From contig NZ_CP036402.1 in assembly GCF_004322855.1 (NCBI RefSeq), positions 992,001 to 1,056,000 on the forward strand: a stretch of 64,000 nucleotides of DNA, in the 5' to 3' direction. The position numbers and the translations under genes were made by a program. The stretch's first letter is position 1; every line of letters starts with the position of its first letter. The notes beneath the pieces were generated by a model, which did not search any database, was not told where the DNA came from, and was given only the letters and a program-made list of their open reading frames with translations. This stretch comes from Egibacter rhizosphaerae (GTDB taxonomy: Bacteria > Actinomycetota > Nitriliruptoria > Euzebyales > Egibacteraceae). Positions 18,672 through 20,530 of this stretch are shown here, piece by piece.

Positions 18672-19703
18672 TCAGAGGAGCGACAGCTGGACGCCGGGGT
18701 CGGGCTCGCCGGCCGCGGACTCCGCTCCTCGCCAAGCCGGAGGCGGCTCCGGCTCGCCGTGGCGCACCCGCGCCGCCCGGATCCGCTCGTGGACGAACCC
18801 CACCACCGCTCGCCGGTAGGCGGGCGAGGCCTCGCTGCCGCGCGCGTACAGCTCCCGGTAGCGGGACACCAGCTCCGGGTGGGTCGCGACGAGCCACGGC
18901 CAGAAGACCGCGCGGACCTTGGGGCGCAGGTGCAGCACGATCGGGGTGATGTGCCGGGCACCCGCCTCGGCGGCCGCCTCGACGAGCGCGGCCAGCTCGT
19001 CCCGATCGTCGTTCAGTCCCGGCATGATCGGCGCGAGCATCATCCCCGTCGGGATGCCCGCCTCGTTCAGCCGAGCGATCGCGTCGAGCCGCGCGCGGGG
19101 GTCCGGGGTGCCGGGCTCGGCCTCGCGCCACAGCCGATCACCGAGCATCCCGACGGTGAACGCCGCCGAGACCGGCACACGTTCGGCCGCCTCGGCCAGG
19201 GCGTCACGATCGCGCAGGATCAGGGTCCCCTTCGTCAGGATCGAGAAGGGCGTCCGAGAGGCGCCCAGCGCGTCGATGATCCCCGGCATGAGCCGATACC
19301 GCCCTTCGGCCCGCTGATAGTTGTCGGTATTCGTGCCCATCGCGACGTGCGCGCCCCGCCAGTTCGGCCTCGCGAGCTCGCGCCGCAGCACCTCGGCGAT
19401 GTTGGTCTTCACGACCACGGTCTTCTCGAAGTCCGTGCCCGGGGACAGGTTCAGGTACTCGTGGGTCGGCCGGGCGAAACAGTACGAGCAGGCGTGGGAG
19501 CAGCCCCGGTAGGGGTTGATCGACCACTCGAACGGCATGCCCCGAACGTGGTTCAGCGCGGACTTCGTCTCGACCTCCAGGAACCGCATCCCTGCGAACT
19601 CGGGGGTCTCGAAGGTTCGCTCGCGCTGTACCTCGATCGGCAGCACGTCAGCGTCGGCGGGCTGCTCGTCGGGGTCGCGCTGCAGGTCCGCGAGGGTGCG
19701 CAT
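18672..19703 (-). CDS. radical SAM protein of the Rv2578c type, SOS-boxed
   Basis: A 343-residue radical SAM enzyme related to spore photoproduct lyase-like proteins. The iron-sulfur motif is CSHACSYCFARPTHEY (CxxxCxxC), preceded by WSINPYRGC, and followed by KTNIAEVLRREL, AMGTNTDNYQRAE, FSILTKGTLILRD and TGMMLAPIMPGLND; the end HITPIVLHLRPKV is typical of the Rv2578c group. The reaction is not established. A palindromic LexA-type operator covers its promoter (separate entry), so DNA-damage induction is expected and a role in DNA or nucleotide repair is a reasonable guess. The ATG was chosen for its position 8 nt after TATACT. Confidence 0.85.
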   Translation of the reverse strand: MRTLADLQRDPDEQPADADVLPIEVQRERTFETPEFAGMRFLEVETKSALNHVRGMPFEWSINPYRGCSHACSYCFARPTHEYLNLSPGTDFEKTVVVKTNIAEVLRRELARPNWRGAHVAMGTNTDNYQRAEGRYRLMPGIIDALGASRTPFSILTKGTLILRDRDALAEAAERVPVSAAFTVGMLGDRLWREAEPGTPDPRARLDAIARLNEAGIPTGMMLAPIMPGLNDDRDELAALVEAAAEAGARHITPIVLHLRPKVRAVFWPWLVATHPELVSRYRELYARGSEASPAYRRAVVGFVHERIRAARVRHGEPEPPPAWRGAESAAGEPDPGVQLSLL

Positions 19704-19711
19704 GGCATCCC

Positions 19712-19732
19712 AGTATAGCGAACTCGTGTTCG
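19712..19732 (-). promoter_or_regulatory. LexA (SOS) box overlapping a TATACT promoter
   Basis: CGAACTCGTGTTCG (19719-19732) fits the actinobacterial SOS box CGAAC-N4-GTTCG exactly. On the minus strand it sits 1 nt upstream of TATACT (19717-19712), and the radical SAM start codon follows 8 nt after the -10 box. LexA bound here would block the promoter, and RecA-triggered LexA cleavage would open it. Confidence 0.8.
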
Positions 19733-19895
19733 ATTGTCGCCCGTGCGCACCGTCGAGCGGCCGGCGCACTCGTGGCCGCACCCCGGGATGCGGACGACGC
19801 TGGCGTTCGCGATGTCCCGGGGGGCCCGGCCCGGACCCTCGTTCGGATGCAGCGAACACGGGTATAGCTGCGGGGGACACGTGGCGACGCCTCGA

Positions 19896-19921: not shown

Positions 19922-20530
19922 GTGACCATCGGAACGGACGATCCCCGACACCCGTTCGACGAGGGCAACGGCGGCGTGATCGTCGCCGCCGAGAGCACCG
20001 CTCCGCCCGCAGACGTCTGGGCGCTGCTCGCCGATCCGCAGCAGTGGGCTCGTTGGGCCCCGCACATTCGCTGGATCCAGGCGAGCCGACCGCGCGTGGC
20101 CACGATGGATGCCCCGCAGCGCCCCCGCGGTGGCTCGCGATCACGGGGCCCCGACGCCGCCCCGCCCACTGCCCCGTCGGGCACCGCGGCACGGGCAGAG
20201 CATTCGGAGCCGTGCCTCGTCGCGCCGGGAGACCGGTTGTTCGTCCGAGGTCCTGCCGGCACGCGTGTGCAGGGGGTCGTTACCCACGTGGAACCGGGCC
20301 ACCGGTGGGACTTTCGGATCCGCCTACCCGCCGCGCAGTGGCTCGACAGCGCCCACGTCGTGGCGCCGTGGGGCACCGGCAGCCGCGTGGCGACCCGATT
20401 GCGGGTCGACGGGGTCTTCGCCGGACCGGGTCGGATCGCCCTCGAGGGCTATCGCCCGCTCGCCCGCATCGCGATGGCTCGGCTGGCACGCATCGCCGCC
20501 GCGGACCAGGGACGCCACGAGGCAGGCTGA
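19922..20530 (+). CDS. SRPBCC (START-like) ligand-binding protein
   Basis: A 202-residue soluble protein. The start of an SRPBCC/polyketide-cyclase fold is visible (VIVAAESTAPPADVWALLADPQQWARWAPHI region), as is its end (PWGTGSRVATRLRVDG ... IALEGYRPLARIAMARLARIAA, the long C-terminal helix). Between them lies an unusual disordered Arg/Pro/Ser-rich insertion at about residues 60-98. Such proteins bind hydrophobic ligands; no catalytic site can be assigned. A GTTCCCGGGAAC palindrome upstream may be its operator. Confidence 0.65.
   Translation: MTIGTDDPRHPFDEGNGGVIVAAESTAPPADVWALLADPQQWARWAPHIRWIQASRPRVATMDAPQRPRGGSRSRGPDAAPPTAPSGTAARAEHSEPCLVAPGDRLFVRGPAGTRVQGVVTHVEPGHRWDFRIRLPAAQWLDSAHVVAPWGTGSRVATRLRVDGVFAGPGRIALEGYRPLARIAMARLARIAAADQGRHEAG

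Follow-up and report, generated by a model that had tools for sequence, protein, structure and literature searches.

A LexA-type (SOS) box in the promoter of an Rv2578c-like radical SAM gene of Egibacter rhizosphaerae, whose product is predicted to share the fold, but not the relay residues, of spore photoproduct lyase

Radical SAM genes of the SplB type have been connected with the SOS response in several lineages. Passages of earlier papers describe SplB (COG1533) as SOS-regulated in several species (PMC8565304), predict LexA control of splB in alpha- and beta-Proteobacteria (PMC3323433), and discuss SplB together with SOS components (PMC3765255). In Streptomyces venezuelae, according to part of the published account, a radical SAM gene lies under a LexA ChIP peak and goes up about 20-fold with mitomycin C (PMC9380542). 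The closest described counterparts of the gene analyzed here are vnz_31145 of S. venezuelae, matched by its SplB-type description, and the splB genes of alpha/beta-Proteobacteria and Bacteroidetes, which in the portions of the sources consulted are likewise SplB-type radical SAM genes under LexA in other organisms (PMC9380542, PMC3323433, PMC8565304). The SOS box published for vnz_31145 has no exact match among the loci we compared. For SplB-type radical SAM genes, SOS control thus has published precedents, and the Egibacter case is not new in kind.

Spore photoproduct lyase (SPL; TIGR04070 / PF20903; PDB 4fhc-4fhg, 4k9r, 4rh0) provides the chemical reference. According to passages of PMC5368176, the B. 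subtilis enzyme uses Cys141 as the hydrogen donor and relays the radical via Tyr99 and Tyr97, and in the Clostridium SPL the conserved cysteine is found elsewhere, at C74. Two further families matter for the comparison, namely the Rv2578c family (NF038135; intein form NF038136) and its sister, the PA0069 family (NF033668). A literature search at the level of listings, as distinct from full texts naming Rv2578c, returned no description of Rv2578c as a LexA target. The LexA studies of M. tuberculosis (Davis 2002, Smollett 2012) reportedly list Rv2578c or splB.

The window, i.e. the whole stretch of 64,000 nucleotides that was analyzed, encodes an Rv2578c-like protein on its minus strand (Table 1). 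Read directly on that strand, the DNA ahead of the gene runs GGGCGACAAT-CGAACACGAGTTCG-CTATACTGGGATGCC-ATG, and the palindrome CGAAC-N4-GTTCG, the form of the actinobacterial LexA/SOS operator, occupies the spacer of GCGACA-17-TATACT (19740-19712). The latter is the one site returned by a sigma70-type promoter scan of both strands between 18500 and 20700, for which shuffled sequences gave a mean of 0.0 (sd 0.1). The initial annotation had put a LexA box on the radical SAM promoter, with 8 nt from the -10 element to the start codon and with the box abutting TATACT. The box is confirmed by direct reading, by the promoter scan and by its conservation upstream of homologues, and the 8 nt between TATACT and the ATG at 19703 by direct reading; the box nearly adjoins the -10 element, but a single C separates the two, so the supposed contact is off by one base. 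Judging from the short distance between the -10 element and the ATG, the transcript is probably leaderless, and the box lies at the spot where a bound repressor would stop the polymerase. A second box with one mismatch, CGGACCCTCGTTCG, is present at 19832-19845 of the window, 100 nt farther upstream of the radical SAM gene.

Table 1. Features of the radical SAM gene and its promoter, in window coordinates
Feature	Position	Strand	Basis or remark
-35-like element GCGACA	19735..19740	minus	Promoter scan, 9/12 consensus matches; 17-nt spacer contains the LexA box
LexA (SOS) box CGAACTCGTGTTCG (plus) / CGAACACGAGTTCG (minus)	19719..19732	palindrome	Direct reading; recurs upstream of homologues
-10 element TATACT	19712..19717	minus	Direct reading and promoter scan
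Rv2578c-like radical SAM protein, 343 aa	18672..19703, stop codon included	minus	Probably leaderless ATG at 19703
[4Fe-4S] motif C68-x3-C72-x2-C75	19479..19502	minus	The protein's only three cysteines
G123-T-x-T-D127-x-Y129-Q130-x-x-E133 motif	19305..19337	minus	By eye, putative counterpart of the CTSD loop of SPL

The same operator is found at recognized SOS genes of the same genome. The single LexA gene scores 212 bits against TIGR00498 (cut-off 111), and its product, read by eye, carries the A-G pair and the Ser/Lys residues at the places of self-cleavage; upstream of lexA three SOS boxes, two exact and one with one mismatch, are packed within 80 nt (L001:1840-1919). A LexA of the self-cleaving type is thus encoded, and its own gene carries the same operator. 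The recA box, CGAACACGTATTCG, has one mismatch and is followed by CTACACT, a layout nearly that of the radical SAM promoter, and the ruvC box, CGAACAGCAGTTCG, is exact and lies roughly 70 nt ahead of the start codon used. The exact box is absent from the locus of the one Y-family polymerase found (DNA polymerase IV). Elsewhere in the genome, an exact SOS-type box (L010:1501-1514, corresponding to C1:3854107-3854120) is located about 0.5 kb upstream of a reading frame that by eye appears flagellin-like.

The genome (4,637,169 bases) contains 13 copies of the exact 10-letter core CGAAC-N4-GTTCG and one of its reversed pattern, while about 3.9 exact cores are expected genome-wide from the base composition of the window. 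Four of the 13 sites are tied to SOS genes or to the radical SAM gene (two at lexA, one at ruvC, one at the radical SAM gene), and several of the others appear to fall within long, unannotated reading frames; the site discussed here is the only exact copy within the window. On genome counts alone the radical SAM box would be only suggestive, and we judge it real because of its conservation upstream of homologues.

A homologue at E <= 1e-40 is encoded in 30 of the 66 genomes of the class and in 16 of the 33 more complete ones, hence the gene is not universal; the best-matching named homologue, from a Nitriliruptorales MAG, is 68% identical. Upstream DNA is readable at 29 of these 30 loci, and it contains the exact core in 24 cases (the window's own copy among them) and a core with one mismatch in the remaining five. 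The phylum sample comprised 396 genomes, 135 of them with a homologue at E <= 1e-30, and the upstream stretches of 98 loci were pooled with other loci. Two fragments (G334:C140, G424:C161), a contig-edge case (G188) and two loci with no usable N-terminus (L066, L187) were left out before the counts. From all sources 173 of 175 loci were placed, including repeats (L013/L042 and L014/L075 have identical sequences) and the masked L038. The best match to CGAAC-N4-GTTCG in these 173 loci has 0, 1, 2, 3 or 4 mismatches in 68, 42, 41, 12 and 9 cases, respectively (one masked), and the best match to the reversed pattern in 0, 1, 17, 100 and 53 cases (one with 5 mismatches, one masked). The shorter GAAC-N4-GTTC is perfect in 113 of the 145 phylum loci, has one mismatch in 13 and more in 19; the reversed control yields no perfect match and four with one mismatch, and shuffled sequences average 0.25 and 8.8, respectively.

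The distance between box and start varies: relative to the end of the box, the first in-frame start codon lies anywhere between 9 nt upstream and 86 nt downstream. Most loci of one group (f23) read GGAAC-N4-GTTCT. Among the 113 loci with a perfect box, a strict TANNNT follows immediately in 31 (the background in the same loci is about 0.4%) and was not found at the tested offsets in 82, many of which show GATACT there by eye; in 51, a TTG precedes the box by 5-16 nt. Clustering of the gene neighbours, with clusters that were unannotated and blurred by shadow reading frames, revealed no partner gene common beyond relatives.

Family f15, of which 11 loci were scanned, accounts for 10 of the 19 phylum loci in which no box was found within one mismatch; its one typed locus (L180) is PA0069-like. 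The f15 locus L185 has NGAAC-N4-GTTCN with one mismatch, a level that shuffled sequences reach as well (8.8 per 145). The LexA-like genes of f15 (L215-L225 and L227) have weaker PF01726 scores and seem to use CAAAC-N4-GTTTG as their operator: this apparent auto-operator is exact in five of the 12, has one mismatch in two and two mismatches in five, three of the 12 having the same sequence. Within one mismatch, CAAAC-N4-GTTTG was found at none of the 11 f15 radical SAM loci. Outside this family, a scan for the GAAC-N4-GTTC form only found no match within one mismatch at L017, L026, L033, L037 and L039 (two Planctomycetes, two Acidobacteria and one Acidimicrobiia MAG).

The link between the box and the gene extends to other phyla. 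Of 16 Paenibacillus-type loci, 15 carry NGAAC-N4-GTTCN with at most one mismatch, and the remaining one is masked. The true SPL family is matched in 11 of the 15 Paenibacillus-type genomes searched, and ten of these SPL genes are full-length and reside in genomes that also carry an Rv2578c-type gene; none of the ten has a LexA-type box within one mismatch, as scanned in control regions of 330 nt counted from the profile match, versus 410 nt for the radical SAM regions. LexA control therefore accompanies the Rv2578c-type gene rather than SPL. Two Caldimonas relatives, including L021, which is typed PA0069-like, both have a perfect CTGT-N8-ACAG (in a scan run without a control pattern), which we take to be the beta/gamma-proteobacterial form of the LexA operator. 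A deltaproteobacterial relative has CGAACTAGTGTTCG upstream, and an Eremiobacterota relative (L018) has a perfect GAAC-N4-GTTC just ahead of the gene, outside the narrower first scan. The placement of the gene in the SOS regulon, as originally proposed, is strongly supported by the boxes of the organism's own lexA, recA and ruvC, by the operator upstream of the phylum and Paenibacillus-type homologues, and by the other operator form in the two Caldimonas relatives; judging from these sequences, we consider SOS control of the radical SAM gene nearly certain.

As to the enzyme itself, Pfam recognizes the Radical_SAM domain alone. The protein has the CX3CX2C motif and matches NF038135 with 426.9 bits over residues 10-310. 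Since the equivalog cut-off is 430, we call it "Rv2578c-like": the earlier designation as an Rv2578c-type radical SAM enzyme agrees with the motif and with the nearly full-length match, but it goes beyond a score that falls 3.1 bits short. The match to the PA0069 family, 247 bits against a cut-off of 360, leaves the protein outside that sister family, from which it also differs in that 10 of the 11 f15 loci, the PA0069-like L180 among them, lack a CGAAC-type box within one mismatch. The window protein shares both motif and profile with the Rv2578c family and has no intein. In 13 of the 29 class homologues (L048, L050-L054, L058, L061, L063-L065, L068, L069) and in L015, an intein starts right after residue 74. 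The enzyme resumes at residue 75, and, given the presumed far junction, splicing would use the third iron-sulphur cysteine as its +1 residue; this intein form is known to NCBIfam as NF038136.

A model built by AF2 from 46 homologues (pLDDT 90.2, pTM 0.87) places the predicted fold with SPL, which is the top match both in Foldseek (2.1e-9) and in VIA (Z 20.2 over 261 residues, rmsd 3.3; the next other family has 14.9). SPL is also the top match in a profile search of PDB sequences (E 3.3e-4); here a profile was required, as a search with the single sequence gave two weak matches only, to unrelated enzymes (E 0.26 and 0.57). The window protein thus shares with SPL the fold over most of its length, the EP-T/R/AP region and the radical SAM motif. 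It differs from SPL in the residues that carry the chemistry. All three of its cysteines are cluster ligands, leaving none as a hydrogen donor, and no fourth cysteine is conserved among the 46 homologues, of which at most 13 have one in common. The third cluster cysteine is followed by Phe76 (Phe in 27 of the 46 family members, Tyr in 18, Leu in one). The Y98F entry of SPL, 4k9r, shows that the relay tyrosine belongs at this position, since it reads HYCF where the other entries read HYCY. The CTSD loop of SPL was poorly aligned by hhalign, and the equivalence of Cys141 with Thr124 was therefore set by eye, but the argument from the number of cysteines does not depend on it. With only three cysteines and Phe in place of the relay tyrosine, the known chemistry of SPL cannot apply unchanged; this case is tightest for the window protein, as some relatives have Tyr at this position and additional cysteines. 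The likeness to SPL is hence valid for the fold and for the start of the radical reaction, while identity as an SPL fails. Residues invariant in the alignment of homologues (K99, D127, Y129, Q130, E133, E196 and R205) are candidates that could form a different active site.

We propose, with a probability of about 0.8, that a LexA operator in the promoter spacer controls an SPL-fold enzyme that most likely acts on a DNA lesion without the relay of SPL. The operator would fill the spacer between the -35 and -10 elements of a probably leaderless promoter of the sigmaA type. LexA dimers bound to the operator would block RNA polymerase, and RecA on single-stranded DNA would trigger the self-cleavage of LexA, turning the gene on together with recA, ruvC and lexA. 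We infer this repression, cleavage and induction from the operator and from established LexA biology. The 5'-deoxyadenosyl radical of the enzyme would then, most likely, reverse or process a DNA lesion without a cysteine-tyrosine relay. That its substrate is a DNA lesion, as the regulation and the SPL fold suggest, we regard as moderately probable; the "DNA-lesion or nucleotide-repair job" of the initial annotation fits the same two observations and follows from them by inference, and the idea is not new given the splB genes already reported under SOS control. There is very little to recommend the view that the palindrome arose by coincidence or binds a regulator other than LexA. Base composition alone would yield about 3.9 exact cores, and long reading frames seem to enclose several of the 13 sites, but the box is found near the start in all 29 class loci within one mismatch and is perfect in 113 of 145 phylum loci versus 0.25 expected, and the same box occurs at lexA, recA and ruvC. 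It would be just as surprising if the box served the divergent SRPBCC-type gene (19922-20530, plus strand) instead of the radical SAM gene, since, although the two genes share the intergenic region in which it lies, it occupies a minus-strand promoter spacer, is about 190 nt away from the start codon of the divergent gene, and recurs close to the start of the radical SAM gene throughout the phylum.

The alternatives that concern the substrate carry more weight. The enzyme could be SOS-controlled and yet, within a wider damage response, act on RNA, on a protein or on a nucleotide instead of a DNA lesion. The radical SAM fold serves many substrates, the missing key residues mean that the substrate of SPL is not transferable, and the LexA regulon of S. 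venezuelae, in the part of the account consulted, takes in metabolic and transport genes (PMC9380542); nonetheless, we consider this unlikely, as among solved folds SPL clearly comes closest across most of the protein and LexA control is found with two operator forms, GAAC-N4-GTTC and CTGT-N8-ACAG. Less likely still is that the enzyme functions as a spore photoproduct lyase and repairs 5-thyminyl-5,6-dihydrothymine. SPL is the best fold and profile match, and passages of the cited papers name such genes splB and assign them to UV repair, but SPL uses the C141 donor and Tyr99 (PMC5368176, in the passages cited above), and the window protein has neither: its cysteines are the three cluster ligands, and the tyrosine position holds Phe76. 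The 46 homologues do not conserve a fourth cysteine, and 10 of the 15 Paenibacillus-type genomes carry a full-length true SPL beside the Rv2578c-type gene.

To the published reports our analysis adds the breadth of the SOS link, which covers much of the phylum of the window, Paenibacillus-type bacteria and, with the other operator form, two Caldimonas species, as well as the contrast with the true SPL genes that occur beside this family in a genome, and the test of individual residues. It gives a concrete reason against carrying over the label "spore photoproduct lyase", and it turns the question of what Rv2578c/PA0069 enzymes act on into a narrower, testable one. Tentatively, and with a little less than even confidence, we suggest that the Rv2578c-like proteins may constitute a separate class of SOS-induced radical SAM DNA-repair enzymes, which have the SPL fold without the thiol/tyrosyl relay and whose target lesion would differ from the spore photoproduct, and that bacteria with a true SPL for their spores may keep an Rv2578c-like enzyme for growing, damaged cells.
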